Origin: Limnobacter humi
GTDB taxonomy: Bacteria; Pseudomonadota; Gammaproteobacteria; Burkholderiales; Burkholderiaceae_B
Reading direction: 5' to 3'
Length of the DNA stretch: 64,000 nucleotides
NCBI RefSeq assembly: GCF_024518835.1
Contig: NZ_JANIGO010000001.1
Location: 186,001-250,000 of the forward strand
Below, one piece after another: positions 1 through 29,761 of the stretch. A program made the translations under genes and the position numbers. The notes under the pieces are model-generated. The model was not told the origin of the DNA. It did not search any database and saw nothing but the letters and a program-made list of their open reading frames with translations. The first letter of the stretch is position 1. Each line of letters begins with the position of its first letter.

Positions 1-542
1 CTAAGTCATGGATCCATAAGTCAACTGGTGGACAGTTCATCCAGTCGGATATCTCCATGAATGAACCTCTGGCTTCTTGGTACCTCGACCCCGAGATAGG
101 TGGCGTAACGCTGCATGAGACGAGAAGCCATATGGAATCCGATCTGCATCGGTATTTGTTTGCCTCCTCATTCGCTCGAGAGGAAAAGAGATCACCGAGG
201 TTGAGTGACTTTCCTCAAGCCTTGTTACCCAACCATCAAAATTTGAACAACGAATCAACGCCATTTCTAGACAGATTCCGAGTGCAGTTGCGTAATCAAC
301 CATCGACAACAATCGTGTCCCACATTTCCAAGGATGGGCACTACTACATTCATCCCGAACCCTCACAGTGCCGTAGCCTAACGGTTCGCGAGGCTGCGCG
401 CTTACAGACCTTCCCCGATAACTACTTTTTTGAGGGCAATAGAACACAGCAGTATCACCAAGTGGGCAATGCTGTCCCACCGCTATTGGCTAGGAAAATC
501 GCTGAAATTGTCCTCAGGCTGTTGCAGTCGGCAGGTCTTTGA
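1..542 (+). CDS. DNA cytosine-5 methyltransferase, C-terminal part (5' end outside window)
   Basis: The reading frame is open to the left edge (in frame from base 3), so this is the 3' part of a larger gene and the ATG at 57 is internal. The last ~50 residues carry C5-methyltransferase motif IX ([15 protein letters not shown]) and motif X (QVGNAVPP), which pack beside the catalytic domain and bind the cofactor. The catalytic Pro-Cys and the target-recognition domain must lie to the left. It converges on the AIPR operon with 168 bp between stops. Such methylases accompany GHKL-ATPase/Z1/AIPR clusters, where they would protect host DNA; that partnership is inferred from context. A Vsr endonuclease, often linked, is not in the window. 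Confidence 0.88.
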
Positions 543-710: not shown

Positions 711-2489
711 TCAGCCGTTGTAGCGAACCTCTGGAATTCCTGTGGCTACAGGGGAGTAAGAAGCAGCGAAAACTGCATCCCTACACTCTGGCTTTTTGGC
801 CCATTCCGAAATCATCTTACCACCAGCACTTTCGTGGAGAACCTCACTGACTTGGCGCGCCCATATCTCGATCTGTTTAAGGAGTTCATGGGAGACTGCC
901 TGATTGCTCCAGATCTTATCGAGATCAATGCGATCACCCAACATCTTGGCGGTCACTGATACGGTATATGCCGTGATGTTTGCTTGGAAAGCTTGGAACA
1001 TGGGGCGGATCAGTTTTTGAGTATCGCGGTAGAGCTTTGCCTTCGCGATCATGGATTTGAAGTCGGCAGTAGAGGGCAGTTTGACTTCCTGTCCCTCCGG
1101 AGCAACGAGTGCTGACATGAAACGGTCAAAGTTTTTCTGGGAGCCGAGGCTGACGATCTCTGGTTTCTGAGCCCAGGCATTCAGATACTTTGCAAGATCC
1201 GTTTTGGTCAGGCGGCGACTCGTCGGGATCGCGTCCTTGATCTTCTTTAGCTTGGCAGGTGTTGTTCCTTCCCTAGCCAACAAGGTATTGTAGCTTCCTG
1301 CAGCGCGCTCATAGAACCACTGACTGACTCCATCTGGGCAGTACACATTACGGGAAATCTTTTCGATCTCCACATGGAATGGCTTGTTGGCTGAGAGGTC
1401 TGACTGTCTAACAGCGTTCTGGCTGTTCGCAAATCTGGAAATGTCTGAAACCAGGGCCTCTTCCTTGGCAGGGTCCTGAACTCTCATGACAATGATCTTT
1501 GCGGCCACTCTGACGCCGGACAAGTCGATTTCAGGATACTTCTTCTTTGTGAAGTACAGGGATGCAGTGGTCTGCCCACCGTTGACGATTTGAAGACCCT
1601 TGATCCATGCGATTCCGATCATACCGTCCAAGGAGTTCCCCAGCCTTATTTCGTCGGCGACCATAACAATGCCGTTGTTGTAGGCCATGAAGCGTTCAGG
1701 TGAATTTCTGAGAGTGTTTTGTATGCCGGCATTCACGCCTTTGCCCTTGACGCTCAAAAACGAACGAACGTTGGCTTCAAGAAGTCGCGCACCAAATTTT
1801 TCGTAAAGCAGGCGAAGAGCGTCACCGGGAACAGCGGTCAATGCGTAGTCATAGTCATCGTTCTGCCCATTGACGAATACGCATGGTAAGGGCTGACCAG
1901 ACAACTCATTGAAATCGATGACCAATTCGTCACGCGGCTTACCTTCAGAGATGTGGCGGTATAGCCGCTCAATATCCATAACCTCCAGCCTGACAGCCTT
2001 ACCGTTTATTTCTTTTGTCTTGAAGCTCTTGGAATTGGCGATGCGGTCAGTAATGACGAAGATTCGGATCTGTTCCAAATCGTTGTAGATGGCTTGCAGC
2101 GTCTCAGCTAATGAACGGACATCGTTTGTCGGATCCAGCTTTGGAGCGAGCGTTCCTTGTGCACAGAGGGACAAGAACCGAAAACATTGCTCAACAGCCG
2201 TTTTCGTTTCAGCGTCAGGTATACGCGTTGGCTCATCCTCCCCTAGGTAAAGGCTAACGAACAGATCGAGCTGATCGTTGTCGTCAGACAATGAGTAACC
2301 ACTGAGCCGCAATATGGCGTTGCCAACTTTTCCTTCGAAATAGCACTGGACAGGCTCGAATGTCATACCAATCTCTGCCATGTGATCCATGACGATATTG
2401 GCATAAACAAGTTCTTCGTAGAGGGCCCCGTCCTGCATCTGCGCACGCACGGTTGCCTGTATTTCCCTCAAAAATTCAGCAAGTTCCAT
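711..2489 (-). CDS. AIPR family protein (abortive phage infection-type)
   Basis: 592 aa. It matches the AIPR family, first linked to lactococcal abortive infection proteins. The family core is visible from about residue 240 to 315: a conserved NNG at 271-273 followed by NGGQTT at 303-308. It is the last gene of the five-gene operon; its ATG lies 2 nt after the stop of the PD-(D/E)XK gene, so translation is probably coupled. AIPR proteins recur beside GHKL ATPases, Z1 helicases and methylases in restriction-like islands. The biochemical role is unknown; an effector or target-engagement role is inference. The call is firm on family and weak on mechanism. Confidence 0.85.
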   Translation of the reverse strand: MELAEFLREIQATVRAQMQDGALYEELVYANIVMDHMAEIGMTFEPVQCYFEGKVGNAILRLSGYSLSDDNDQLDLFVSLYLGEDEPTRIPDAETKTAVEQCFRFLSLCAQGTLAPKLDPTNDVRSLAETLQAIYNDLEQIRIFVITDRIANSKSFKTKEINGKAVRLEVMDIERLYRHISEGKPRDELVIDFNELSGQPLPCVFVNGQNDDYDYALTAVPGDALRLLYEKFGARLLEANVRSFLSVKGKGVNAGIQNTLRNSPERFMAYNNGIVMVADEIRLGNSLDGMIGIAWIKGLQIVNGGQTTASLYFTKKKYPEIDLSGVRVAAKIIVMRVQDPAKEEALVSDISRFANSQNAVRQSDLSANKPFHVEIEKISRNVYCPDGVSQWFYERAAGSYNTLLAREGTTPAKLKKIKDAIPTSRRLTKTDLAKYLNAWAQKPEIVSLGSQKNFDRFMSALVAPEGQEVKLPSTADFKSMIAKAKLYRDTQKLIRPMFQAFQANITAYTVSVTAKMLGDRIDLDKIWSNQAVSHELLKQIEIWARQVSEVLHESAGGKMISEWAKKPECRDAVFAASYSPVATGIPEVRYNG

Positions 2490-2491
2490 AG

Positions 2492-3496
2492 TTAGATCAT
2501 TTCCAGTTTCTTGAGAGCTGTTGTCAGGCCAACATCTTGGCTGAGCAAGGGCTCGAGATTGATTTCATATCTAGCACTGATGACTCCGGGCTTCACGTTG
2601 CCGAGCATCAGTCGAGGAAAATTCTCTCCAACTTCAAGCATCGCGATTTCCCGCAGGGAGAATCTCCGATGGTATTGAGGTGAATGCGCTGGCGAGTATC
2701 CAGCAGCGAGAACTCTGTCATCAAACTCGGAAAGGGTGATTGGATTAGATTCCAGCTGTGCTCTGATTGCAGAAATCTTTTCGGGGAGCGTTTGTCCACT
2801 CTCGGTCAACGCATATTTGACGGCACCCAAGAAAAGGGGGCTGCAGTTCGTGTCATCCAGTTGTTCCAGCGAACCAATTTTTGCAACCAACCCAGCGGTG
2901 GCAACAGTGGTCTTTACTTCGATGGCACCAAAGCCAAGTTCGAAATCCCTGAGCCCGTGAAGTGGTCCACTCCAGGCCCTGATTGCAGCTTCAGGAGCCA
3001 TGCCGACCTCCAGCATTTTTTCCAGCACGGTGAGTTCACCTACAAGACCAACTTCATTCTCGGCAGACAAAGGTACAGCACCCTTGCGCATGAACTCTTG
3101 CCACGCTCGAATCCTGCCAAGGAAAGCGCGCAATTCAAGACTGTGGTCTCCGGAACCCGTGTCCAAGATTGCATGGACAATATCCGACACCATGGCCGAG
3201 AATAATTCAAGGTTTCCGTTCGGACTCCGAGTCAATGCAAGCCAGACGAAGCCATCCTGCTCAGAATTGACACGAGTGACATGGAATCCCAATCCTTCAG
3301 GAAATTTTTCGTTTCTCGAGATCACACTTGTACGAAAACCTGCGAGCAAGGCTTCGCATAGGTCTGGGAAATTGCGCCCAGCTCTGAACCTGCCGGGATG
3401 TCTGGGCAAAACTGCCACTGTGTTCCATCCGGACGTGCCTTGTGCGGTCTGGATTGAATTCCAAGCCAGCTGAATTTCGTCAATCAACTTGGCCAT
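2492..3496 (-). CDS. PD-(D/E)XK motif protein (DUF4420-like), putative restriction nuclease
   Basis: 334 aa. A restriction-endonuclease-like core is readable: a helix with GLVGE (E154), then D184 in RDFELG and the E193-V-K195 pair in AIEVKTT, i.e. E...D...ExK. This is the metal-binding signature of DUF4420-type nucleases found with Z1 and GHKL ATPases. It overlaps the end of the Z1 gene by 17 nt and ends 2 nt before AIPR, so it is an operon member. It is the likely DNA-cleaving subunit of the system. The N-terminal ~140 residues are not recognised and could hold a recognition or partner-binding module. Confidence 0.85.
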   Translation of the reverse strand: MAKLIDEIQLAWNSIQTAQGTSGWNTVAVLPRHPGRFRAGRNFPDLCEALLAGFRTSVISRNEKFPEGLGFHVTRVNSEQDGFVWLALTRSPNGNLELFSAMVSDIVHAILDTGSGDHSLELRAFLGRIRAWQEFMRKGAVPLSAENEVGLVGELTVLEKMLEVGMAPEAAIRAWSGPLHGLRDFELGFGAIEVKTTVATAGLVAKIGSLEQLDDTNCSPLFLGAVKYALTESGQTLPEKISAIRAQLESNPITLSEFDDRVLAAGYSPAHSPQYHRRFSLREIAMLEVGENFPRLMLGNVKPGVISARYEINLEPLLSQDVGLTTALKKLEMI

Positions 3497-6377
3497 ATTC
3501 CTGAGCCCATTGTGCTTGAGTTAAATGATCCACTGCATATTTGACTTTCACCCCGGCATCGCTGGCAGGGAAGCTAATGCCGAATGCAATGACAGGTTTT
3601 TTCCAGTCACCAAAGCCAGGACCAAATTCGGCCTGATCAGGGTCCAAGGGGTACAGCATCAGCAAGCCCCTCTCAGGGGCCGCCTGTATTCCTTGTTCTG
3701 GCGCGCCCATACCTCTGATATATCGGATAGCGAGGCCATTGGGAAAAGTAGGTGCCTCTGGCTTTTTGCCGTCTTTAACTCGGGCTGCGTCTGGATTCCA
3801 GTTTTTCAGAGTCAATGCCATGGCTGCGTCCCATGCAGGGCCGTCAAGATCGATAGACTCATCCGGCGGCGAAACGGGACGACCAATCGCATAACGGTCG
3901 CTGCGTGTGTTATCCGCCTTCCGCTTGATCATGCGATCAACCCTTGGCCCACCTGTGAACTGGTAAGAAACTCCCTCACCACCGTCTGCCAAGTAGACTG
4001 TCCACGAGGTCAATTGACCGATCTTGGCCATGGACCGGATGAAATCCCGTATCAGGGGGCTATTGACCTTACGCGCTGCCGGATGGGTGGCGTAGGAATC
4101 AAAGAAGTCTGCGATAGCTTCGCTGGAAACGTTGTCCCAGAGATGCCCGTACCATTTTTTGGGCTTGCTTCCCCGCAGTCTGATGATTTCAGGCGACTCT
4201 TGCGGAGAGCCACATGCTTGGAGAAGCCTCGTGGTTGCGTCCAGATTCTTAGACAGAATATCAGCGGATCTGTGCAGTGCAACGGTCTCAAGGATTTCGC
4301 CGCTGAAAGACAGTTGCAAATCCTTTGCGGTGCGCATTTTCAAAGGTGATGTAACCAGCAGGACGGGATGCGACTGGACCCTGAGACCATAGTCCTTAGG
4401 GGTTGCACCACTGTCTTTCATGGCTTCGAATTCGTCTCGCAGTTCCTCGGATGCATCAGCAATGTGCTGGAACCACTCGATCAGATCATCCGTCGTGTAC
4501 AGACGGCAAAGATCCAGATAGCCCGGGCGGTACCCAAACCATCGCCCCATTTGCATGAGGGTGTCGTACATTTTTGAGGTGCGGACAAAGTAACTGGTGC
4601 AGAGTCCTTCAAGCGTAAGACCTCGAGCAAGCTTGTCGCCGCCAACAGCAATCACTTTCAGCCCCTTGGTGCCGGGTGTGGCGTAATCAAGAATATCCTT
4701 TGCCTTGCCATTGATCATTCGGACTTCAATATCGGACAGTACATCTCCCAGCTTCTGTAAGATTTCATCCCAAGAATGATCTGGCGGCGTGGTCTCGGAT
4801 TCAACCAGTCTCTCAATCACAGCAGTGCGAGTGGGCGAGAAATCCTCCTCCCAGAGCCTTCGCATCTGTTTCAGCGACTCGATATCGTCAACACCACGGG
4901 TAATACGCTGGCGAAGCCCCGTGATGTATTCCTTTACCTGCCTATGAACATCTTTTTGAACGAGGATATAGCGAGTAACGTGAATCAGCATAGAGGAATG
5001 CTCGCTACCCTGGCCGCGTAACTCGCGGGAAGCGCAGGCCAATACAAAAGACTGGATTGCATTCTTAAGAGAGGGAGGCAGTGTGTCTACGCCAAGATAG
5101 AAAGGTTGATGATACTTGTCGTGTTTTTCTGGCATCCATCCTGTCTCACGGTCTTCGCTCATGTGGTCCTTGAATACGCGAACAAGAGGAAGCCCTCCGA
5201 TTCTTCCATCGACGCCTCTCAGGCCAAAGATGCGAGTAGGACCGAAGTAATTTGAAGGAGCTGCGAGATTGATGATGAATGACTTGGGAAACAGGTCTGC
5301 GCCCTCATCAGTGGTGTTCCCTTGCCTATGGATAAACACGTTGGCGAACGGGGTAGCCGTGTACCCGACATAAGCAGACTTTGCAAAGCTGTGCAGTATC
5401 TTCCGGATACGGCTGTTGATGGCCTTGGGCTCGTGATCCGGATCCGGGTTACCTTCGGAGTCAAATGTCTGCTCCCCGGTATCAACTGACCCGTTATCTG
5501 CCTCGTCATCAATCAGAAGCAGGGGCAGATTGCTGACGTATTTAAGTCCGCTTTCATTATCTCTCGTATCGGCGACATGGTTCTTGATCCATTTCAGCAG
5601 GCGATCCAAGACGGTTTTGTTCTTCTTAACGACGAATAGCCAGGGGCGTTCTTCTGGCGTGATAGCTAGGTGATTCGCGATATTTGTGCTGAAGTCGCCG
5701 TTTTCAGTTCGGTTGGTGGCGCAGTTAGGCTTGATCTCCAGATCGCGTCCCATTTCGCCGACACCAATGAATTTGACTACATCATTGTTCGCAGAAGTTT
5801 CGTAGCCCAGAAACCCTTCTTCAAGTCGAATCTGGGTCTGGGATCGCAGGTTGTTGTGAAGACCGGCTAGAATAATGATTATTTTGTACCCAGCGTCAGC
5901 CGCTTTACAGATCAGTCCTGTGTAGTTGGCGGTTTTCCCCGACTGCACATGCCCAACCACCAGCCCACGCCTGTCCCAAGAACCAGTCCGGTTGGGGTCC
6001 TCAAGAAGGCCAAGCATTTCGTCTGTAGAGATTTCCAGTGCATCTATGGCAGCCGGAGGCATTTTCCGCTCCAGCATGTCCCTGTACCTTGGCCAATATC
6101 TCCATCCCTTTTTTCGTGAAGAACCAAGCCAGGTTTCGTGATCACTGTCGTCGGAGAGTGTTGAGTTCTTGCCGATCCAGATGCTGTAACGACGGATCAG
6201 TTCAGCAACGGCGCCCTCGATATCAATGGGTTCATCTTCCCGTCGAGGCATGATGGAAGCGGCCAGCTCAACCATTTCCTTGATCACTGAAGCGGTTGGG
6301 TTCTGGGTGGCCTGTTCCATCAGCAGGTTCTGTGCATTGCTTATGACGGTACTGGTTGGTCGATTGAATTCGCTCAT
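3480..6377 (-). CDS. Z1 domain superfamily 2 helicase-like ATPase
   Basis: 965 aa. It is a Z1-type P-loop protein with helicase motifs in order: Walker A GHVQSGKT (142-149), Walker B with DDEAD (290-294), a VGYTATPFANV motif (337-347), motif V-like GGDKLARGLTLEG (579-591) and motif VI-like QMGRWFGYRPGY (609-620). Z1 proteins are the motor component of restriction-like systems that also carry a MutL/MORC-type ATPase and a nuclease. Its start is 35 nt downstream of the ATPase stop, and its 3' end overlaps the nuclease gene. It probably translocates on or remodels DNA to license cleavage; that role is inferred from the family. Confidence 0.92.
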   Translation of the reverse strand: MSEFNRPTSTVISNAQNLLMEQATQNPTASVIKEMVELAASIMPRREDEPIDIEGAVAELIRRYSIWIGKNSTLSDDSDHETWLGSSRKKGWRYWPRYRDMLERKMPPAAIDALEISTDEMLGLLEDPNRTGSWDRRGLVVGHVQSGKTANYTGLICKAADAGYKIIIILAGLHNNLRSQTQIRLEEGFLGYETSANNDVVKFIGVGEMGRDLEIKPNCATNRTENGDFSTNIANHLAITPEERPWLFVVKKNKTVLDRLLKWIKNHVADTRDNESGLKYVSNLPLLLIDDEADNGSVDTGEQTFDSEGNPDPDHEPKAINSRIRKILHSFAKSAYVGYTATPFANVFIHRQGNTTDEGADLFPKSFIINLAAPSNYFGPTRIFGLRGVDGRIGGLPLVRVFKDHMSEDRETGWMPEKHDKYHQPFYLGVDTLPPSLKNAIQSFVLACASRELRGQGSEHSSMLIHVTRYILVQKDVHRQVKEYITGLRQRITRGVDDIESLKQMRRLWEEDFSPTRTAVIERLVESETTPPDHSWDEILQKLGDVLSDIEVRMINGKAKDILDYATPGTKGLKVIAVGGDKLARGLTLEGLCTSYFVRTSKMYDTLMQMGRWFGYRPGYLDLCRLYTTDDLIEWFQHIADASEELRDEFEAMKDSGATPKDYGLRVQSHPVLLVTSPLKMRTAKDLQLSFSGEILETVALHRSADILSKNLDATTRLLQACGSPQESPEIIRLRGSKPKKWYGHLWDNVSSEAIADFFDSYATHPAARKVNSPLIRDFIRSMAKIGQLTSWTVYLADGGEGVSYQFTGGPRVDRMIKRKADNTRSDRYAIGRPVSPPDESIDLDGPAWDAAMALTLKNWNPDAARVKDGKKPEAPTFPNGLAIRYIRGMGAPEQGIQAAPERGLLMLYPLDPDQAEFGPGFGDWKKPVIAFGISFPASDAGVKVKYAVDHLTQAQWAQEYGQVD

Positions 6378-6412: not shown

Positions 6413-7936
6413 TCAGGATTCCGGTACGGAAAGCTGTGCAATCAGATGAGGGAAATTCTGAAAAGGATCTGTGCAGGCGAGTCTCGCCCTAGCGTCCTCG
6501 ATATCCATGCCCTTTTGGACAACTAAGTTTCTGAACAGGGATTTCATTACCTTCAAAACAGCTTCATCAGAACTGGAGGCAAAGCTTGTCACAGGCGTTT
6601 CTTTTTGCTCGGCGGTGTCCAGCCAGATTTTTTGAACAGGGACAGTCTCTTCAATGACCCTGATCATGCTGATGATCAGATCCTTCTGGGTAGAGGTGGC
6701 GTCGTCAAGAACCGCAGCAATGCTCGGATGCGCCTCGTCAATCCTATAGCGAATTCCCTTGGACGTGCGTTCCACCTTCCAAGCTTGCTCGATTGGTGTA
6801 TTCGTATTGACTCTCGTTGGGCTTCCCCGATATGCAAAGACCCGGCGGGCACGCTCCCTCGTGTCAGTGGCCATACTAGTCAACCAAGGACGCAACGCTA
6901 CGGGAGGACGTGCAACTGACTTCTTGACGTCAATTTTCCAGTCTGCATCTGCAGTGTTCGGGATATCTAGTCGAATGCGAGCCAGTCTGCATGGCTCTTC
7001 TCGGTTCCAGGCCCTGGGCTGCCCCAGCCCCAACCATCCACCAGCGACCAGAAGCCGCTGGTTTCTATAAATGTAAAAACCTTGCTGAGCATTCCACCCG
7101 GCAGGACCACCGTTGATCTCGTATTCGTTATCTGACAACTTATCCCTGTGAGGTAGGACGTGGCATTGAACTTCAATGTCTCCGCATGAGGTTCGGTGCC
7201 TCTGGACAGGTGATGTCCATGGTTTTGCGGGATGACCACTCAGGAAAGGATCCCACGCTTCGATCTTTTTACCATTCAGGTTGAGTTGCAGCTTTGGACG
7301 GTGTCCTTCGAGTAAACGGTGAAAAACCATAGCTAAGTGACGCTCGACCTGCTCTTCCATTAAGGCCAAGAAGTCATTGACCGTGAAGCTTTCGGTGACG
7401 ACGCGGTCAAGAACCTCCCATATCACGATTGTCCCGTGATCGAGGGAATCCAGCTTTGCGGGCAGGTCCTCGGAGCCGGGTGCCGGTCCTTCAATTAGGA
7501 CCCATCCGATATCCGGATTAGCTTTGAGCAGATCCAGATCCCATCGGAGACAGCTGGTGACACCGTTCTTTCTGGATGCAACTGTGAGGCGTTTGCATTG
7601 AGAAAACGAGGCAGTCTTAAGTCCCATGCCGAATCGGCCAAGATCGTGCGGTGATCGTGCGTCGAGAGGGTTTTTATCGCCTAGTGTCATGGCGCTCTCA
7701 AGCTCTTGGTCACTCATCCCGGACCCATTGTCCAGAATATGGATATTACTCGACGTCTCTTTCCAGTTAAATTGAATATCTACTGTAGTGGCGTCAGCGG
7801 AAAAGCTATTGTCGATGATGTCAGCTAGTGCAGCAGCGGTAGAGTAACCGAGCCCGCGCAGGGATTCCAGCATTGCGCTGGCCCTTGGTGGTGCGCTCCT
7901 TGTAGCCAGCTGATTATTTTGTTTGTATGGACTCAT
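6413..7936 (-). CDS. GHKL ATPase of the MutL/MORC type
   Basis: 507 aa. The N-terminal Bergerat fold is clear: N-box ADIIDNS (38-44, Asp in place of the usual Glu), G1 LDNGSGM (68-74) and G2 [11 protein letters not shown] (100-110), as in prokaryotic MORC/MutL-like ATPases. Iyer, Abhiman and Aravind (2008) described such ATPases coupled to Z1 helicases in restriction-modification systems. The C-terminal ~250 residues are not recognised and may be the S5-like and dimerisation parts. Its ATG lies inside the end of the sigma-factor gene (23 nt overlap), so the two are very likely co-translated. It probably acts as an ATP-gated DNA clamp. Confidence 0.9.
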
Positions 7937-10403
7937 GAGCGATATCCATTAGGTCTTTGAGTTTGTCGCTGCGGGATGGGTGTTTCAACTTGCTCATGGC
8001 TTTGGCCTCAATCTGTCGGATGCGTTCTCTTGTTACACCGAATGCCTGTCCAATTTCTTCAAGCGTGTGATCTGTTGACAGGTCTATTCCAAACCGCATC
8101 CGTAAAATACGTGCCTCATTAAGTGTCAAACTATCCAGCATGTCCCTTACTGTCACATGAATATTGTGCAGCAATGCGGCATTCATGGGAGCGGATTGAG
8201 CACCATCTGCAATGAGCTCAGTTTGCAGATTTCCCTCTTTATCGATTAACGTATCAAGGGGTACGATCTCCATATCGAATGTTACTATCTGTCGAATCTT
8301 GTCCTCGGGTATCTCCATTCGATCCGATAAAACGGAAACGTTAGCCTTGGTCCCGTGCTCCTGTAGATATTGACGAGAGATCCGATTAAGTTTGTTGATG
8401 GTTTCAATCATGTGCACCGGAATACGTATGGTACGGGCCTGGTCGGCGATGGCGCGGGTAATAGCTTGACGTATCCACCATGTGGCATAGGTCGAAAACT
8501 TGTAGCCCAGACGATATTGAAATTTGTCCACGGCCTTCATCAGGCCGATATTTCCTTCCTGTACTAGATCAAGAAATTCTAAGCCTCTATTGGTGTACTT
8601 TTTCGCGATCGACAGCACAAGCCGAAGGTTGGCTTCAATCATTTCTTTCCTGGCTTCTCGGCAGGCGCGTTCGCCAGCGTTCATGCGTTTATTGATGTTC
8701 TTAAGTTCATCCAGTGGAACCATAACGCGATGCTGCAAGTCGATCAGATTTCGTTGAATATCCTGAATCTGGGAAATATGCCGCCCTATGTTAGTAGCCC
8801 AGGGCATCCCAGATACGGCCTGACCCTCTACCCAGTTGAGGTCGAGTAATTTTGAAGCTACAAGGTTGTCCTGTATATCGCGATCACTGAATTCAATCAC
8901 GAATTGGTTATGCGGGTAGCCGCACTTATTTACGATGATGCTGCGAAGCTCGCGCTCGTTCCTGCGTACATCGTCCACCTGGCCACGCACGATGTCGCAC
9001 AGCTTCTCAATAGCTTTGGTAGTGAACCGAATAGTCATCAACTCTTCAGACAGCGCAGTCCGAGCCCTAACGTGGTTGGGTGTTCCCCAACCCTCCTTCT
9101 CGTAGACCTTGTGCAGTTGTTCAAACAGATTGGCAACCTTATCAAACCGTTCCAAAGCCTGGTTTTTCAGTTCCTCAAGATGCTTGTTCTGTGCTTGGGA
9201 CTCGCTATGGTTTTCGTCTTCGTCGGTATCGTCGAACTCGGCGAAGTCTTCTTCGGTCACAGGGTCGTCGATCATGTCGGCGTTGAAGAAGCCAGCTACC
9301 AAGGTGGAAATCACAACCTTGCCTTCACGGATTTCCCTCACCATACGCAGGATTTCGGCAATGGTAGCAGGGGATGTACTAATCTCCTCTGTAATTTCCT
9401 TCAGACCTTTTTCAATGCGATTGGCTACTTTGATTTCGCCTTCACGTGAGAGCAGTTCACCCCTGCCCATTTGTCGTATGTAAAGGCGCCCTAGGTCATT
9501 TGATGACCCCGAAAGCTCGTCTAGATATTCGAGGGCACTATTTAAGGTACGCTCTTCCTCGGCCGTCTCTTCTTCATTAAGGTGACCCGTGAAGGCATCA
9601 AATATGGAAATATATTCGTGTCGTTCGTCCGTCTGCCCCCCCAGATCGTTAATGACCTGACGAATATTGTTGGAGAAATCCAGATCTTCAATTCCAAATT
9701 CCGACGACGCAATATCTTGGATCTGTAAGTCCGGAACACTTCCTTCCCGCAAGACTCTCAGCAGTGCACCTCTAACTGCAGCACGTGTTTCAGCGATTGC
9801 AGTCCTGACAATCGGTTCTGCAAACTCGGGAAGAGAGACGTCAAAATCTTCCCAGTCGGCCGAAGTGTCAATCGCAACGTGCTCTGAAATCGCTTTCTGC
9901 TGAACTTTAACCTTGAGCGCAATTTCAGGATCTTCTTCAGGAGGATGGGCCTCTTCTTCTGGCTCCCAGTCCCCGATACTCCATTCCGAATCTAATTCAT
10001 CCTGATTAAGGTCAATTGTGAAGTCGTTTGACACTGCAGAGGGGTGCGTTACCTGTTCGGTTGTACCAGAAGAAGGTGGTTCTGCTACCTGATCCGTCGG
10101 CTGAGCTGCAACTGGAATTGAAACGAATGACTGTATGAGCGCTGCGGTCTCGCTATACCCTGCCTCTGAGGCTATGCTGACTGCATTCTTCCCCTCTAAG
10201 TTCAATAAGAGTGGATCCGCGCCGTTCTCCAGCAGCAGTCTGCAAGCGTTGGTCTGTTTTTTTCTGGCCGCGATCATTAGCGGCGTGTTGCCCGCGTCAT
10301 CACGGGCATTCAGATTATCACCTTTTGCAATGTGTAACCTTATCGCAGCCTCAACGCCATTTGAGACCGCTATTTTTAGTAGCTTGTTCAATATGCCTTT
10401 CAT
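7914..10403 (-). CDS. RpoD-type sigma-70 factor with N-terminal ankyrin repeats
   Basis: 829 aa. Residues ~1-95 form ankyrin repeats ([25 protein letters not shown]). An acidic linker follows, then a region 1.1-like stretch (~225-262, ending INDLGGQ), region 1.2 (302-332, [13 protein letters not shown]), an RpoD-like non-conserved region with acidic DDTDEDE (391-397), region 2 (~585-655, including [10 protein letters not shown]), region 3 (~660-720) and region 4 (~755-815, [12 protein letters not shown]). The -10- and -35-contacting segments look nearly identical to housekeeping sigma-70, so it should read consensus-like promoters. It is first in the operon and overlaps the GHKL ATPase gene by 23 nt. 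Housekeeping RpoD normally lacks ankyrin repeats and lies beside dnaG. This is therefore a second, island-borne vegetative-type sigma. Confidence 0.93.
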
Positions 10404-10595: not shown

Positions 10596-11408
10596 TCATT
10601 TTGAGGCTGTTTCAAAGACCTCTGGGCTGACCCCACCGAGATGGGAATGCCTTCGGGTTCGGTTGTAAAACGCTTCAATGTAATCGAAGATATCTTCCTT
10701 GGCCAGATCACGCGTTTTGTAGATACGTTTTTTGATTCGCTCCTTTTTCAAACTACTAAAAAAAGATTCGGCAACGGCGTTGTCCCAACAGTTTCCACGC
10801 CGACTCATGCTGGGCTCAAGCTGGTGGGTTTTACAGAATCGCAACCAGTCATCACTGCTGTATTGCGAGCCTTGATCTGAGTGTACAAGTACCTTTTTCT
10901 TGGGGTGTCTGCGCCACAAAGCCATCAGCAAAGCATCCAGTACAATTTCTCGATTCAAGGATGGTTTCATTGACCAGCCAACCACTTTGCGCGAATACAA
11001 ATCCACTACGACTGCTAAATAAAGCCAACCCTGCCAAGTTCGAATATAAGTAATGTCAGTGACCCAGGCTGTGTCTGGCTCATTGACTGTGAACTCACGC
11101 TCCAATCGATTCGGGGCAATGATGGAAGGCCGGCCAGCAATCGGGCGTGGTGCCTTATACCCGCGCAAAGCCTTGATCTGGTTGACTCGCATGATTTTAG
11201 CCACACGATGTTTGCCACACAACTCACCGGCTTCTGGCATGTCCTGAAACACGCGACGTGCGCCGTACACACCACGACTGGCCGAGTAAGAAGCTCGAAT
11301 CAATTCCAACAATCGGTGATCTTCAATCGCGCGGTCAGAAACAGGTTTGTGCAGCCATGCATAAAATCCAGCCCTGGCAATGCGCAGCACTCTGCACATT
11401 GTGGCCAC
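10596..11408 (-). CDS. IS3-family transposase OrfB (DDE catalytic part)
   Basis: 270 aa from the first ATG. An HTH_21 segment (residues ~25-85) precedes an rve integrase core with the DDE triad: D118 (AWVTDITYI), D178 (HSDQGSQY) and E214 (AVAESFFSSLKKE), ending in the usual RRHSHLGG. In the family the active protein is the OrfAB fusion made by -1 frameshifting. OrfB's frame is -1 relative to OrfA and open across the slippery site at 11480-11486, so the element looks functional. No internal stop is seen. Confidence 0.95.
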   Translation of the reverse strand: MATMCRVLRIARAGFYAWLHKPVSDRAIEDHRLLELIRASYSASRGVYGARRVFQDMPEAGELCGKHRVAKIMRVNQIKALRGYKAPRPIAGRPSIIAPNRLEREFTVNEPDTAWVTDITYIRTWQGWLYLAVVVDLYSRKVVGWSMKPSLNREIVLDALLMALWRRHPKKKVLVHSDQGSQYSSDDWLRFCKTHQLEPSMSRRGNCWDNAVAESFFSSLKKERIKKRIYKTRDLAKEDIFDYIEAFYNRTRRHSHLGGVSPEVFETASK

Positions 11409-11446
11409 ACGAAACTCTTGTTGGTGCTCGTTAATAAATTGGTACT

Positions 11447-11731
11447 TTACTCGGGCTGGCTTGCAAAGTACCTTGCGGCCTTTTTTAAAATATCTCGCTC
11501 CTCTTCGGTGCGCCGAAGTTGGGAGCGCAATTTCAAAATTTCACTTTTAGCTTCAAGCAACTCATTTTTTTGCTGCTCGGTCTCTGTGGGCTTTACCGCG
11601 TTGACCCACTTGTAAAGACTGTGGGACGAAACGCCAAGTCGCTCCGATACCTCAGCGATGGTGTAGCCACGGTCAATAACCTGTTTGACGGCTTCGTCTT
11701 TAAATTCTGGGGTATACCTTTGTCCACTCAT
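11447..11731 (-). CDS. IS3-family transposase OrfA (HTH protein)
   Basis: 94 aa. An HTH_Tnp_1-type N-terminus (YTPEFKDEAVKQV, then a helix-turn-helix to SHSLYKWV) is followed by a leucine-zipper-like helix (about residues 54-80), as in IS3-family OrfA. OrfA binds the terminal repeats and is fused to OrfB by programmed frameshifting. The ATG is preceded by GGAGAAAGTCATC, a good ribosome-binding site. Confidence 0.93.
   Translation of the reverse strand: MSGQRYTPEFKDEAVKQVIDRGYTIAEVSERLGVSSHSLYKWVNAVKPTETEQQKNELLEAKSEILKLRSQLRRTEEERDILKKAARYFASQPE
11480..11486 (-). promoter_or_regulatory. -1 programmed frameshift heptamer (A AAA AAG)
   Basis: Read on the minus strand in the OrfA frame, the codons TTA-AAA-AAG give the canonical slippery heptamer A_AAA_AAG. 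A -1 slip moves ribosomes into the OrfB frame, which is open here, producing the OrfAB transposase. This matches the IS3-family mechanism. Confidence 0.8.
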
Positions 11732-12228: not shown

Positions 12229-13320
12229 TCAAACAGCCAACGCTTCCTGACTCTTGCGCTTCAAGCTGGGCAAGCTGTACTTGAATGCACGGCCCACAAC
12301 CGTGGAGAACTGTTTAACAATCGATGCCTTGTTGTAATGCTGGCCATAGCGCTTGCAAATTTCCTGCACTTCAACCGACATTTCTGCATACCGGTGTGCA
12401 GGCACCTCCGGGAACAGGTGATGTTCAATTTGGTGGCTCAAGTTGCCAGACATGATGTGGAACAGCTTGCCGCCGGTCAGGTTCGATGAACCCTTCAATT
12501 GGCGCAGGTACCAATGCGCTTGCGACTCACCATCCACCACCGACTTGTCGAACACTTCCGAATCGGCTGTGAAGTGGCCGCAGAAAATAATCGTGAAGGT
12601 CCAGTAATTGCGAATGATGTTGGCCAGGAAATTACCTGCCAGCACCGGCAACAAGAAGGGGCCAGCCAACAGCGGGAAGAAGATGTAGTCCTTGGCGATT
12701 TGGCGCCAGGCTTTCTTCAAGGTTGGAATGGCGCGGTCTTTGGTTTCTTTCAGGGTTTTTTCGCCGCTGATCACTTTTTCAAGTTCAAGCGTTTGCAAAG
12801 CCAGCAGGTTTTCAAAGAAGGTGGCCAGCAAAGCCATCATGGGGATGTTGGCCAGAAAACGCGGCTCCCATTTCTGTTCCGGGAACAAGCGCAGCACGCC
12901 GTAACCGATGTCATGGTCCTCGCCCAGCACGTTGGTGAAGGTGTGGTGGCGGTAGTTGTGGCTGTAGCGCCAGTTATCAGAAGTACACCAGGTATCCCAC
13001 TCATAGGTTTGGCCCATCAGCCGCTTGTTCTGCATGAAGTCGTACTGGCCATGCATCACATTGTGGCCCAGCTCCATGTTCTCCAGAATTTTGGATACGC
13101 CCAAGGTGAGCGTGCCCAATACAAACGCTGGCGGGAAAATGCCGGCCATCAAGAGGCCACGGCCTGCGATCTCGGTGTAGCGCACGGCCTTTTCGATTTT
13201 GGTGATGTACTTGGCATCGCGTTCGCCCACATCCGCCAAATGCTTTTGGCGAATGGCTTCAATTTCGGCGCCAAACTGTTCCAGTTCAGCGGGGCTCAAT
13301 GTGCGGTCAGCTTTTCTCAT
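12229..13320 (-). CDS. desB: Membrane fatty-acid (acyl) desaturase, copy 1
   Basis: 363 aa. The three histidine boxes of membrane di-iron desaturases are present: HNVMH, HNYRHH and QIEHH (in SGNLSHQIEHHLFPEVP), with hydrophobic segments between the first two and before the third. It would introduce a double bond into acyl chains, taking electrons from the reductase encoded 30 nt upstream in the same operon. The arrangement resembles Pseudomonas DesC-DesB (acyl-CoA delta-9 desaturase with its oxidoreductase), so the symbol is by analogy. Regiospecificity cannot be read from sequence. A paralogue lies at 28601-29761. Confidence 0.88.
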   Translation of the reverse strand: MRKADRTLSPAELEQFGAEIEAIRQKHLADVGERDAKYITKIEKAVRYTEIAGRGLLMAGIFPPAFVLGTLTLGVSKILENMELGHNVMHGQYDFMQNKRLMGQTYEWDTWCTSDNWRYSHNYRHHTFTNVLGEDHDIGYGVLRLFPEQKWEPRFLANIPMMALLATFFENLLALQTLELEKVISGEKTLKETKDRAIPTLKKAWRQIAKDYIFFPLLAGPFLLPVLAGNFLANIIRNYWTFTIIFCGHFTADSEVFDKSVVDGESQAHWYLRQLKGSSNLTGGKLFHIMSGNLSHQIEHHLFPEVPAHRYAEMSVEVQEICKRYGQHYNKASIVKQFSTVVGRAFKYSLPSLKRKSQEALAV

Positions 13321-13350: not shown

Positions 13351-14526
13351 TTACAGGTCCAGTGACACTGGGCCTTGGGCGGCGTTGATACACAGGCGCA
13401 AGGCTGTGTTGTTGGTGCCGCACACCGATTTGTTTTGCATGTTTTGCGTGGTGCCTGTCAGCTTTTCGCAGGAGCAGGTGTTGCAAATGCCCATGCCACA
13501 GCCGTGGGGTGGGTTGATGCCCTGCTCTTGCAAAGCCTTGAGCAAGGGTTTGTTGTTGCTCACTTCAACAATGCGATTGCTTTTGGTCAAGGTGACGGTG
13601 AAGGTTTTCACCTCCGCGTCGTCATCGATGGTGAGTGCCATCGGTGTGAACGATTCAGCGTGAAAGCTTTTGGGTGTATCGCCCAGAATGCCGCGCAGTG
13701 CATTCATGAAGCCATCAGGGCCGCAGGCATACACATCGGTGGTTTCCAGGTTGCCGGCAACGGCTGCGAATTGTTCGGCGCTGGGGCGGCCTGCCAAGTC
13801 ACCTTCCGCCAGGTTGGCACCGCTTTCCAGCAAGCGCACATAGTTGAAGTGCGCATTGGTTTTTGCTGCCAAGGTGGCGTCAAACAACACATCGGCTGGG
13901 TTGCGGGCCCAGCTCATCAACGTAACATCGGCTGGCCAGCCTTGCGCTTCCAGCTCTTCAATCAGGCTGATCATGGGTGTAATGCCGCTACCGGCTGCCA
14001 ACAGCAGCATGGTGGGACGTTGTTGGTTCAGTGTAGGCTGTGTGTGTGCAAGGGTCATGTCACCAAACACATCGCCCAGTTCAACCACGGTGCCCACGGC
14101 AAGCTGGTTCACTGCGTAGCGTGAAACCAAACCGGTTGGGGTTTGCTTGATGGTGAGGCGCACCAAACCGCTGTCGGTGGGCGCGCTGCTGAAGCTGTAA
14201 GAACGGGTGTGCACCACTTCATCAATGGTGACACTGAGGTTCACGTGTTGGCCAGCCTGGAAACCTTTGAACAAGGCATTGGGGCGCAACCACACGCTCA
14301 CCGCATCGGCGGTTTCACGGTCAATGCGCACCACTTCAGCCAGGCAACGGTCTGTAGAATGGGTGCTGCCAGCTTGCTCAAGCCAGAAATTGACGAATTC
14401 CTGACCCAGAATTTTGGACAGTCCGCGAACAACTTTGCTGGACAATTGGCTGTTGGTTCTCATGGCGTTTTCCACATTAGTGAACAGATGTGCACCAATG
14501 TAACGAAAAACCCCTGTTTTCTGCAA
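13351..14526 (-). CDS. desC: Flavin- and 2Fe-2S ferredoxin reductase partner of the desaturase, copy 1
   Basis: 391 aa. An FAD-binding domain with RSYSFSSAP, an NAD(P)-binding domain with GSGITPMISL, and a C-terminal 2Fe-2S ferredoxin domain with C-x4-C-x2-C (PHGCGMGICNTC) and a distal Cys (LRLC). It should pass electrons from NAD(P)H through FAD and 2Fe-2S to the desaturase just downstream. It is the first gene of the pair and sits behind a DesT/FabR-like palindrome at 14563. The first ~55 residues are an extension typical of the desaturase-linked group. Confidence 0.88.
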   Translation of the reverse strand: MQKTGVFRYIGAHLFTNVENAMRTNSQLSSKVVRGLSKILGQEFVNFWLEQAGSTHSTDRCLAEVVRIDRETADAVSVWLRPNALFKGFQAGQHVNLSVTIDEVVHTRSYSFSSAPTDSGLVRLTIKQTPTGLVSRYAVNQLAVGTVVELGDVFGDMTLAHTQPTLNQQRPTMLLLAAGSGITPMISLIEELEAQGWPADVTLMSWARNPADVLFDATLAAKTNAHFNYVRLLESGANLAEGDLAGRPSAEQFAAVAGNLETTDVYACGPDGFMNALRGILGDTPKSFHAESFTPMALTIDDDAEVKTFTVTLTKSNRIVEVSNNKPLLKALQEQGINPPHGCGMGICNTCSCEKLTGTTQNMQNKSVCGTNNTALRLCINAAQGPVSLDL

Positions 14527-15303: not shown

Positions 15304-16734
15304 ATGCAACTCATCTGGCACAAACGCGACCTGCGCACCGTTGACCATGTTCCCCTTCAACGCGCACTTGAACAGTCGGGCGACAGTGAGTTGCTGCCCC
15401 TCTACATTCACGAACCGGGCTGGTTGGCGCAACCCTATGTGTCGGGCAGCCACCAGCAATTTGTGCATGAATCACTGGACGACCTTCGGTTGGCCTACCG
15501 GGCAGCCGGTGGGGACTTGGCCGAAACCACAGGCGATGCGGTGGCGATTTTTGCGCGGCTACATGCACAGGCGCCCATCACCGCGATTTGGGCTTATCAG
15601 GAAGTAACAACCCTGTGGGGCTATGAACGTGACCAAACCGTGCGCCGTTGGTGCAAGCAACAGGGCATTGCCCTGCACGAGCTGCCGCAGAATGGCGTGC
15701 ATCGCGGGCGAGATGGGTATTTGAAGTACAACTTCAAGGCCTATTTGGACGACAGTGCCTATACACCGCTCACCTCCTTGAAAAAAATCCATGCCGCAAA
15801 CCCAGCGATTCAACACAGGTGGGCTTTCACACCAGGCTCACCGCTTGAGCTTGGCAATCCCCCCCATCAGCGACCTGCACTGAAATCGCCCCCTGCGCCA
15901 CAGGCCATGAAAGGCGGCATGCGGCAGGCCCATGCACTCATTGCCACATTTTTTCAGGAAAAAAACCTGTTCCGCTACCCGGGCTCGCTGTCCAACCCCA
16001 GCCTGGCTGAACACGGTTGCAGCCGCTTGAGCCCCTACCTGGCCTACGGTGTGGTGTCGGACCGTTTTGTGCTGCAGCGTTTAAACACCGTGTACGAGGC
16101 GGCGCTGCCTGGGCTAGACCGAATCAGCCAGGACAAAATCACGGGTTGTGCCAAGTTTTTTGCCGACCGCATGCATTGGCGGAGCATGTATGCGCAGGCC
16201 ATGGAAGTACACCCGCACAGCGAGGTTCAATGTGACATCGCCGGTTTTAACGGATTGCGGGAACACAGCGAAACAACCGGTTGGTTTGAGGCTTGGGCAG
16301 GCGGGCAGACCGGTGTCCCCATGGTGGATGCAGCCATGCGACAACTCAACCACACCGGCTGGATACCCATGCGCATGCGCGGCATGGTGACCTCATTTGC
16401 CCTCAATGAACTGTGGTTGCCCTGGCAACAAGTGGCGCACCACCTGGCGTGTGCTTTTGTGGATTTCGAGCCTTTTATTCATTTTTCGCAGGTGCAAATT
16501 CATGCAGGTTCATCCCGCTTGTCAGGGCCATTGATCTACGACCCCGTGAAACAACAAGCGGAACAAGACGAGCAAGGGGACTACGTGCAGCGCTGGGTCC
16601 CGGAACACCTGTCGCCAACGTACCCTGCCCCACTGGTGAATATTCATGCCGCGCGGGAGCGTGCACGCAAGCGGGTGTTTGCCATTCGAAAAGGCCAGCC
16701 CGACCCCGGCAACAGCCTCACCCCGTTGGTGTAG
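15304..16734 (+). CDS. phr: Cryptochrome/deoxyribodipyrimidine photolyase family protein
   Basis: 476 aa. The N-terminal alpha/beta domain (LIWHKRDLRTVDHVPL, residues ~3-130) and the C-terminal FAD-binding helical domain are both present, the latter with GQTGVPMVDAAMRQLNHTGWIPMRMR. The family uses reduced FAD and blue light to split pyrimidine dimers. The part after the FAD core differs from textbook CPD photolyases: the usual WQW-containing stretch reads FSQVQIHAGSS. A divergent bacterial clade with altered substrate or sensory use is therefore possible. No strong ribosome-binding site precedes the ATG. It converges with the next gene with a 17-nt overlap. Confidence 0.85.
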   Translation: MQLIWHKRDLRTVDHVPLQRALEQSGDSELLPLYIHEPGWLAQPYVSGSHQQFVHESLDDLRLAYRAAGGDLAETTGDAVAIFARLHAQAPITAIWAYQEVTTLWGYERDQTVRRWCKQQGIALHELPQNGVHRGRDGYLKYNFKAYLDDSAYTPLTSLKKIHAANPAIQHRWAFTPGSPLELGNPPHQRPALKSPPAPQAMKGGMRQAHALIATFFQEKNLFRYPGSLSNPSLAEHGCSRLSPYLAYGVVSDRFVLQRLNTVYEAALPGLDRISQDKITGCAKFFADRMHWRSMYAQAMEVHPHSEVQCDIAGFNGLREHSETTGWFEAWAGGQTGVPMVDAAMRQLNHTGWIPMRMRGMVTSFALNELWLPWQQVAHHLACAFVDFEPFIHFSQVQIHAGSSRLSGPLIYDPVKQQAEQDEQGDYVQRWVPEHLSPTYPAPLVNIHAARERARKRVFAIRKGQPDPGNSLTPLV

Positions 16735-28600: not shown

Positions 28601-29761
28601 ATGGGTATGCCAACACATTTGAGTGCGGCCGACATTGAAGAGTTTGGCCGCGAAATGGACGCCATCCGCAATGAGGTGGTGGATTCACTGGGTGAGCGGG
28701 ATCGCCATTACATCCTGACCCTGATTCGGGTGCAGCGTTCCATGGCCCTGGCCGGGCGCATCATTTTGTTTCTCAGTCTGATTATTTTGCCGGGCAACGG
28801 GCTGGGCTTTGACAGTTGGGCAGCCTTCCTCACCATCGCTGGCGTGGGTGCCACCATGCTGGGGCTCGCCAAAATCATCGAGAACATGGAAATTGGCCAC
28901 AATGTGATGCATGCCCAATGGGATTGGATGCGCGACCCGGCGATTCAATCCAACACTTGGGAATGGGACAATGTGTGCCCCTCCGACCAATGGAAGCACA
29001 GTCACAATGTGGTGCACCACACCTGGACCAATGTGTTCGAGAAAGACCCCGACATTGGCTACGGGGTACTTCGGGTATCCGAACAACAGCGCTGGAAACC
29101 CCAGTTTTTGCTCAACCCCATCATCAACTTCATTCTGATGATGCTGTTCCAGTGGGGTGTGGCCGTACACGACATGGAACTGGACAAGGTGATTGAGGGC
29201 AAGAAAAAGCTGTCCGAGATTGGACCCATGGGCCAACGCATTTGGTGGAAAGTGAAGCGCCAATTGCTGAAGGACTATGTGCTGTGGCCACTGCTGGGTG
29301 CCGCATTCACAGTGCCCGTGACCGTGGTGATGAACCTGCCCATGTTGAGCAATGCGTGGCATGCGTTTGTGGTGGTGGCACTGGGTAACCTGGTGGCCAA
29401 CGGCATGCGCAACATTTGGTCCAATGTCATTATTTTTTGTGGCCACTTTCCGGAAGGGGTACACCATTTCACCAAGGAAGAGGTGGAAGGTGAAACCCGC
29501 GCGCGTTGGTACCTGCGCCAGTTGCTGGGCAGTGCGAATATCGGCGGCGGGAAAATTTTTCATATTTTGTCGGGTAACCTGAGCCACCAGATTGAGCACC
29601 ACCTGTTTCCGGATGTGCCCAGCAACCGCTACCCGGAAATGTCCCAACGGGTGCGGGCGCTGGCCGACCGCTATGGGCTGCCCTACAACACGGGCAGCCT
29701 CACGCGGCAGTTTGGCACCACCACCTGGAAAATCTGGAAGTTTTCCTTGCCGGTTAGCTGA
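28601..29761 (+). CDS. desB: Membrane fatty-acid (acyl) desaturase, copy 2
   Basis: 386 aa. Histidine boxes HNVMH, HNVVHH and QIEHH, with the family hallmarks NVFEKDPDIGYG and SGNLSHQIEHHLFPDVP. It is clearly paralogous to copy 1 but longer between boxes two and three. Good Shine-Dalgarno (GGGGAGAAAACC). It forms a two-gene operon with its reductase and lacks the DesT/FabR-like palindrome seen at copy 1, so the two modules are probably regulated differently. The last 8 nt overlap the converging DUF305 gene. Confidence 0.88.
   Translation: MGMPTHLSAADIEEFGREMDAIRNEVVDSLGERDRHYILTLIRVQRSMALAGRIILFLSLIILPGNGLGFDSWAAFLTIAGVGATMLGLAKIIENMEIGHNVMHAQWDWMRDPAIQSNTWEWDNVCPSDQWKHSHNVVHHTWTNVFEKDPDIGYGVLRVSEQQRWKPQFLLNPIINFILMMLFQWGVAVHDMELDKVIEGKKKLSEIGPMGQRIWWKVKRQLLKDYVLWPLLGAAFTVPVTVVMNLPMLSNAWHAFVVVALGNLVANGMRNIWSNVIIFCGHFPEGVHHFTKEEVEGETRARWYLRQLLGSANIGGGKIFHILSGNLSHQIEHHLFPDVPSNRYPEMSQRVRALADRYGLPYNTGSLTRQFGTTTWKIWKFSLPVS

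Follow-up and report, generated by a model that had tools for sequence, protein, structure and literature searches.

Apparent repeated capture of host RpoD by the sigma gene of MZA-type operons, as seen from a divergent operon of Limnobacter humi

The window, that is, the whole stretch of 64,000 nucleotides (nt) of Limnobacter humi DNA that was analysed (contig NZ_JANIGO010000001.1, positions 186,001 to 250,000), contains a five-gene operon on the minus strand that is headed by a gene for a sigma factor. This first gene (7914..10403, minus; ATG start at 10403) encodes a protein of 829 amino acids, designated P0001, and was recognized as mzaA-type from the list of open reading frames (ORFs), and by Pfam, PADLOC, NCBIfam, and AlphaFold2. 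The four genes behind it, all on the minus strand and each recognized by Pfam, PADLOC, and NCBIfam, encode an mzaB-type GHKL (MORC/MutL-like) ATPase (6413..7936), an mzaC-type Z1-domain protein (3480..6377), an mzaD-type DUF4420 PD-(D/E)XK protein (2492..3496), and an mzaE-type AIPR protein (711..2489). The mzaA and mzaB genes overlap by 23 nt, mzaB and the Z1 gene are separated by 35 nt, the Z1 and DUF4420 genes overlap by 17 nt, and 2 nt lie between the DUF4420 and AIPR genes. The overlap with the ATPase gene and the nearly gapless succession of the others had been described in an earlier annotation of this DNA (the original prediction), and ORF coordinates and Pfam confirmed both; the strand, a region-1.1-like domain, a convergent methyltransferase gene, and an upstream transposase gene were absent from it. 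Sequence comparisons identify the first gene as mzaA, the sigma gene of an operon that is MZA-type but divergent, and point to repeated capture of host RpoD by such genes.

PADLOC named the five proteins MzaA to MzaE, in order, with E values of 6e-84, 6e-200, 0, 5e-61, and 5e-213, respectively. NCBIfam assigned the same five families, with MzaA entered as ‘MZA anti-phage system associated sigma-70 family RNA polymerase sigma factor’. The NCBIfam scores, set against the equivalog cut-offs, were 583/800, 749/850, 1241/1500, 348/420, and 912/1050 for MzaA to MzaE; all five fall below, and the operon was therefore filed as divergent and ‘MZA-type’. The MzaA profile spans nearly the full length of the protein (P0001 residues 5-822 against positions 2-717 of 726). 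P0001 also passes the housekeeping RpoD profile NF004208 (613.7 bits, cut-off 555), and its sigma half matches RpoD better than it matches the MzaA profile. It is not the primary sigma factor of the genome, which has a separate rpoD (914 bits, G000:C23), whose product is 51% identical to P0001 over residues 279-820. The original prediction held that no described defence system of this type encodes its own primary-class sigma factor. This was wrong, and a sigma gene at the head of such an operon is not new, because MzaA models are present in PADLOC and NCBIfam, and the available text of PMC9523054 describes mzaA as a sigma factor of the validated mzaABCDE system from Gao 2020. The RpoD-derived, operon-tied sigma of the earlier interpretation stood, whereas the novelty of a defence sigma did not.

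The MZA system (mzaABCDE) shares with the window the five families, the gene order, and a sigma-70-family MzaA, while the window proteins differ by their sub-cut-off scores and the RpoD-like sigma half. Like RpoD (NF004208), P0001 has regions 1.2, 2, 3, and 4, and the RpoD non-conserved region (NCR), but it differs by an ankyrin N-module, a diverged 1.1-like domain, a diverged sigma finger, and its operon context. The sigma factor CalpS belongs to the extracytoplasmic function (ECF) class. The CalpL-CalpT-CalpS system of type III CRISPR is likewise a defence with a sigma-driven transcriptional response, in which, according to the available part of PMC12751052, CalpS is freed when an anti-sigma factor is proteolysed; unlike MzaA, CalpS is not an ankyrin-fused RpoD copy. 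As far as the available text goes, the MORC/paraMORC restriction-type operons (Iyer 2008, PMC2292703; type II of PMC9523054) have in common with the window a GHKL ATPase and an SFII helicase, and further genes for an RE-fold nuclease, AIPR, Dcm, and Vsr. Neither ‘sigma’ nor ‘ankyrin’ appears as a word in the main text of PMC2292703, and mzaA is reported in just a few of the type II systems in the available text of PMC9523054. Three surveys, in their available portions, list Mza among the defence systems without a worked-out mechanism (PMC12629846, PMC12479173, PMC10855318), and one of them places it under nuclease activity.

Within P0001 (all coordinates on the minus strand), ankyrin repeats occupy residues 9-89 (10137..10379; Pfam Ank_2, 6e-11), with a predicted local distance difference test score (pLDDT) of ~96-98 over most of the repeats. 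They are followed by an acidic linker, residues 95-150 (9954..10121), that is predicted to be disordered (pLDDT <50 at 99-143 and 145-151), and by a diverged sigma region-1.1-like domain, residues 204-260 (9624..9794; block pLDDT 80-92), which was detected by hhalign. In that single comparison, residues ~200-260 aligned to RpoD region 1.1 with a probability of 91 and an E value of 1e-6. After a mosaic junction at about residues 281-300 (9504..9563), Pfam recognized sigma region 1.2 at residues 306-335 (9399..9488; Sigma70_r1_2), the NCR at 345-557 (8733..9371; Sigma70_ner, 4e-43), region 2 at 588-658 (8430..8642), with core and -10 contacts retained, region 3 at 667-739 (8187..8405), with a diverged sigma finger and predicted disorder at 714-736, and region 4 at 756-808 (7980..8138), with -35 contacts retained. 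The AlphaFold2 model (mean pLDDT 81.6) depicts a full sigma factor with a confident ankyrin domain and a disordered linker, and the 50 Foldseek matches listed for this model were RNA polymerase holoenzyme/promoter complexes or sigma-70, mostly from E. coli, the best with an E value of 6e-29. Judged from the model and these matches, the sigma identity of P0001 lies far beyond chance. The proposed order of ankyrin repeats and acidic linker ahead of RpoD regions 1.2, NCR, 2, 3, and 4 was borne out by Pfam, AlphaFold2, and Foldseek.

Related loci were gathered through MzaC (best 80 of 570 relatives). A sigma ORF lies ahead of MzaB in 68 of the 80, or 68 of the 74 in which the upstream side could be judged, in agreement with the association of sigma and operon that the original prediction had put up for checking. 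Sequence comparison shows that P0001 is a mosaic, in which residues 1 to ~290 were inherited with the operon, and residues ~300-829 derive from a captured RpoD of the Comamonadaceae type (taxon names are from record titles). In a tree of MzaB, MzaC, and MzaE, the window operon groups with loci L007, L008, and L009 (100*), and a tree of the N-module agrees with that of the operon in its broad shape. With the MzaA of these loci, P0001 shares 45-48% identity (ankyrin part) and 46-49% (1.1-like part), compared with 15-18% (NCR) and 18-20% (region 3); the sigma halves of L007-L009 are far diverged. In 40-residue windows, residues 1-280 of P0001 are 20-55% identical to operon-kin MzaA versus 8-20% to Comamonadaceae-type RpoD, and over residues 301-820 the values are 40-92% for the Comamonadaceae-type RpoD versus 0-68% for the operon kin; the junction was located by this sliding identity. 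The NCR of P0001 is 62% identical to the Comamonadaceae-type RpoD, where eight RpoD-RpoD control pairs show just 17-48%, and in a tree of 79 rows P0001 was nested within the RpoDs of Comamonas, Hylemonella, Hydrogenophaga, and related hosts (100*). A similar switch of identity near the start of region 1.2 was found in L015, L062, L021, L034, and L065. Chimeric assembly is an unlikely source of the mosaic, because the pattern recurs across assemblies (L015, L021, L062, L065, and the window) with uninterrupted reading frames. L010 is a possible example of an old, faded mosaic; the branches of L010 and L023 are too long to place a Comamonadaceae capture shared with P0001.

The 79-row tree contained P0001 and 14 of the 68 MzaA, chosen for RpoD similarity or as comparators; RpoD rows L147 (itself an MzaA), L171 (a duplicate), and L176 (partial) were left out. 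Eight of the 68 related MzaA have a sigma half that nests with RpoDs from the lineage of its host or from a related one. For L015 and L016 (Nitrotoga, Gallionella), the RpoDs of the group include those of their own hosts (100*). L062 (Azonexaceae) is grouped with an RpoD of Rhodocyclales (99*), L021 (Pusillimonas) with the RpoD of its own host (98*), and L027, L033, and L034 (Competibacter) with those of their own hosts (99*). L065 (Cupriavidus) falls inside a starred set of 18 rows that contains its host RpoD, at an unstarred exact place. After removal of six long-branch MzaA and 19 RpoD rows, the resulting 54-row tree, with nine RpoD-like MzaA, showed six label changes (5-95% range 6-6 over 200 bootstrap trees). 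These label changes, together with the approximately unbiased (AU) test, in which holding the 15 MzaA as one clade cost 370 units of log-likelihood (p 7e-44), reject a single ancient origin of the MzaA sigma half. In agreement with the trees, BLAST ranking among 87 RpoDs (L147, L171, L176, and L177 left out) placed the host RpoD first for L015, L021, L034, and L065, second for L027, and third for L016 and L033. Of the 28 MzaA for which a host RpoD was available, 10 ranked it third or better, and all seven RpoD-like ones were among them. The sequences thus show six or more captures of RpoD within the set of nine RpoD-like MzaA that was compared.

To define what is kept in such captures, 10 MzaA-RpoD pairs (nine MzaA) were compared with the eight RpoD-RpoD control pairs. 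Region 1.1 is 11-23% identical in the MzaA-RpoD pairs versus 30-66% in the controls; P0001, set against the region 1.1 of two near RpoDs, is 19-23% identical and was not classed as carrying an RpoD-type region 1.1. By these comparisons, the host region 1.1 is not carried along in the captures (nine MzaA compared). Regions 2.1-2.4 are 76-100% identical in the MzaA-RpoD pairs, and region 4.2 is 79-97% identical, except in L033 (65%). Lower values, given here with those of the controls, were found in region 1.2 (46-77% versus 74-94%), region 3.2 (28-71% versus 75-88%), and region 4.1 (38-70% versus 52-72%). Residues R584, E585, R588, and Q589 (-35), and Q406 (core), in E. coli numbering, are present in 68 of 68 MzaA, D403, W434, and R441 in 67, and Q437 in 66. 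P0001 retains D403, Q406, W433, W434, Q437, T440, R441, R584, E585, R588, and Q589, which we take to be core, -10, and -35 contacts. The derivation of the sigma from RpoD, with retained core- and promoter-binding residues, was in this way upheld.

The sigma finger (512-522) behaves differently. Each of ten scored positions is held by 28-30 of 30 RpoD, whereas P0001 holds none of the ten, in a place where the alignment is uncertain; the finger is degenerate in MzaA overall, and some fresh captures, such as L062, retain much of it. The fingers of RpoS-type sigma factors differ too, and for this reason a sigma dead in initiation is not claimed. Among 12 close MzaA pairs, the ratio of nonsynonymous to synonymous substitution rates (dN/dS) is below 1 nearly throughout, with several dS values saturated or near zero, and dN is low in region 2 and mostly in the ankyrin part. 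The end branch of P0001 measures 0.79 in the 54-row tree, where most RpoD tips are below 0.3. According to the available text of PMC10924106, mzaA is one of the defence genes that vary most; overall, purifying selection acts on it, with positive selection within the sigma-70 non-essential domain, and section 10, in the portion available, has no mention of RpoD recapture. Recapture of RpoD could feed such variability and selection signals, as could the recruitment to mzaA of rpoD reads or of rpoD-like copies.

The sigma factor is a frequent but not universal part of these operons, which occur in many bacterial lineages. Sigma presence was not judgeable in six of the 80 loci, with the upstream side missing, short, or unclear (L018, L019, L025, L038, L073, L075), and six others had no sigma ORF upstream (L035, L037, L049, L053, L057, L080); in the genomes of the latter, no joined ankyrin-sigma match was found. 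The first five of them form a Pseudomonas-type clade with mzaB to mzaE present and a Dcm gene immediately upstream of mzaB. Of the 68 loci with a sigma, 54 contain a Dcm-type gene (BLAST E <= 1e-8), partial or weak in a few cases. The idea, taken from the six sigma-less loci, that Dcm and sigma are alternative first genes was rejected on this count, and also on account of the Dcm-type gene at the window's own operon. Because Dcm-type genes lie in so many of these loci and beside the window operon, the latter is placed in a restriction-like neighbourhood as described in the available text of Iyer 2008 (PMC2292703).

The domain scan covered P0001 and 45 of the 68 MzaA (omitted were contig-edge rows, near-copies, and the bulk of the alphaproteobacterial clade); all 46 proteins contained Ank_2 as well as regions 2 and 4, and region 3 was found in 37, region 1.2 in 23, and the NCR in 16. 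By BLAST (E <= 0.01), the ankyrin part has a match in 60 of the 68 MzaA ORFs, so that the fusion is not peculiar to this genome. Another ankyrin protein of the window's genome reached 46 bits as a control, compared with 35-45 bits for the weakest MzaA, and common descent of the ankyrin part, as judged by alignment score, is therefore secure just where matches are stronger (up to 100 bits). Three of the MzaA without a match lie at contig ends (L032, L040, L048). Locus L069 (near L066/L067), whose MzaA is without an ankyrin match yet has its first residues retained, offers a natural test of the role of the ankyrin part. Across 143 genomes of the class, the window protein alone among the matches listed covers the MzaA profile from position 2, and the others begin at 163 or later. 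MzaC of any kind was found in eight of 369 genomes of the class, just two of them near MZA (the window's own and G257). When plasmids were searched with P0001 by tblastn, the 30 listed of 508 matches began at residue >=203, in the way expected of RpoD, and 80% query coverage was reached at no place.

Repeated capture, with promoter and core contacts kept and region 1.1 omitted in the nine cases compared, hints at selection for a good fit to the RNA polymerase of a host. The reading that we tentatively favour, at a chance somewhat below even, is that MzaA is a gated, phage-resistant substitute primary sigma for sigma-70 promoters, which spares the surfaces that phages seize. MzaA would work as a real sigma, binding core RNA polymerase and reading sigma-70-type promoters, with the N-module (ankyrin repeats, acidic linker, and 1.1-like domain) gating the sigma half. 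Re-copying of RpoD would keep core and promoter binding matched to the RNA polymerase of the host at the time of capture, and omission of the host region 1.1, together with drift of exposed surfaces, would make takeover by sigma-70-seizing phage proteins hard. Defence (or host) genes could then stay transcribed while a phage redirects RNA polymerase. Full inhibition by T7 Gp2 requires region 1.1 (available text of PMC3778932), and T4 AsiA binds at regions 4.1/4.2 (available text of PMC2988021); a substitute sigma is favoured since MzaA lacks the host region 1.1 that the former needs and drifts in region 4.1, which the latter grips. Between two earlier proposals, back-up transcription and sensing of a phage anti-sigma, the anatomy fits the former better.

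Several observations weigh against this reading and the captures behind it. Eighteen of the 28 ranked MzaA place their host RpoD only at 5-83; those are too diverged to be placed and may be old captures. Five MzaA away from contig ends (L017, L022, L069, L077, L086) show no ankyrin match, other upstream frames having been checked. Regions 1.1 and 4.1 vary among housekeeping RpoDs as well (30-66% and 52-72%), and drift driven by evasion would be undone by each recapture of a host RpoD. The RpoD of the window's host falls outside the Comamonadaceae-type clade; the captured copy therefore did not come from the present host and is mismatched to it. The finger and region 1.2 drift after capture, which is odd for a hard-working initiator. 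No excess of sigma-70-like promoters was detected upstream of mzaA in 61 sequences (60 of the 68 MzaA loci and the window), with a mean best score of 7.93 versus 8.01 for shuffled sequences, and a stricter scan of the window upstream of mzaA found no sigma-70-like promoter; a shared promoter was dropped as a candidate, in a test that is weak in G+C-rich DNA. The strongest counter-evidence is the lack of a promoter signal, the drift of both the finger and region 1.2, and the captured copy's mismatch to the present host.

The sigma finger and the NCR serve productive initiation and escape. Their erosion would be accommodated if the MzaA holoenzyme is a guide that settles on sigma-70 promoters of incoming DNA, with the ankyrin part recruiting the MzaB-E ATPase/nuclease machine, an explanation that we regard as doubtful. 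The contacts R584, E585, R588, Q589, Q437, W434, and R441 are held in 66-68 of 68 MzaA while the finger drifts, the NCR is recognized in just 16 of 46, and the ankyrin part is conserved and under constraint; the linked cytosine methyltransferase, adjoining the window operon and Dcm-type in the 54 sigma loci, may mark self. However, host promoters would be bound as well, so that the sorting of self from non-self is unexplained, contact between MzaA and MzaB-E is an assumption of this explanation, and sigma-less operons with mzaB to mzaE (L035, L037, L049, L053, L057, L080) are odd if the missing part is the one that aims. Such operons, as in the Pseudomonas-type clade, could arise if the sigma is a separable expression part, and a substitute sigma is therefore favoured over a guide. 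In a slightly more doubtful version, the sigma half would be a replaceable cartridge behind a fixed N-module, tethering promoter-reading RNA polymerase to the Mza ATPase/nuclease machine; if true, invading DNA would be found via transcription initiation and not via a DNA motif.

Ankyrin repeats are protein-binding domains, and this suits an unlikely third explanation, in which MzaA mimics host RpoD as a decoy, and a phage anti-sigma or RNA-polymerase-binding protein causes the N-module to release effector genes or proteins. A decoy requires likeness to the host's own RpoD, which would directly explain repeated recapture. Its surface nevertheless drifts fast after capture (the long P0001 end branch), most in regions 1.2, 3.2, and 4.1, the captured RpoD of the window differs from that of the present host, and the four -35 contacts held in 68 of 68 MzaA are not needed by a pure protein decoy. 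That MzaA is an ordinary regulator, which sets the timing or level of mza expression like the C proteins of restriction-modification, with no infection-specific role and with recapture merely preserving function after horizontal transfer, is quite improbable. In its favour, mzaA is the first gene and overlaps mzaB, a methyltransferase is linked, the sigma can be missing while mzaB to mzaE are present, and the operons are spread over many bacterial lineages; against it, no common promoter signal was found (in the weak test), and a near-copy of RpoD would add little promoter specificity. Because a pure decoy has no need of -35 contacts and a pure regulator no obvious need of fresh RpoD, the substitute primary sigma remains the favoured reading.

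The new point, as read from the sequences, would be the repeated recapture of RpoD by MZA-type operons. A literature search, mostly without subscription papers and with partial coverage, found neither this recapture nor an answer as to why a defence operon holds an RpoD-like sigma. Repeated capture makes the puzzling role of the MzaA sigma experimentally testable. It also calls for caution in annotation, as fresh captures score as RpoD and not as MzaA, and rpoD reads or genes may be confused with mzaA. The host genome of L042 carries, besides mzaA, two RpoD-type genes above the RpoD cut-off (L119 and L146).

The operon is flanked by a cytosine DNA methyltransferase gene, the 3′ end of which lies at 1..542 (plus), convergent with mzaE, its frame open from window position about -1005. 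It is Dcm-type, and most of the gene lies outside the window edge (L186:10995-12539, plus); the 13 kb read around it yielded no Vsr gene. On the other side, a transposase gene with an integrase core and HTH_21 (10596..11408, minus; Pfam), presumably orfB of an IS3-family element, ends 192 nt upstream of the mzaA start, with an apparent orfA remnant ahead of it at ~11409-11500 (minus). Because of this short distance, the element may have replaced or supplied the promoter region of the operon. Further along, between 12229 and 29761, the genes look ordinary and include GH31 and GDSL enzymes, transport proteins, fatty-acid desaturases (12229-13320 and 28601-29761), a flavin/2Fe-2S oxidoreductase (13351-14526), and a photolyase (15304-16734); none of the ten scanned there was recognized as a defence gene.

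Among the related loci, L056, L059, L061, and L078 are 64-67% identical to the window in MzaB and 76-78% in MzaE, versus just 52-54% in MzaC, and in the pair L007/L078 dS is low in mzaA (0.15-0.52) and high in mzaC (1.16). On account of these disagreements, the genes of the operon seem to have been swapped individually. Loci L042, L050, L051, and L054 contain a second, larger AIPR-like ORF downstream of mzaE, the product of which is 32-33% identical to MzaE.

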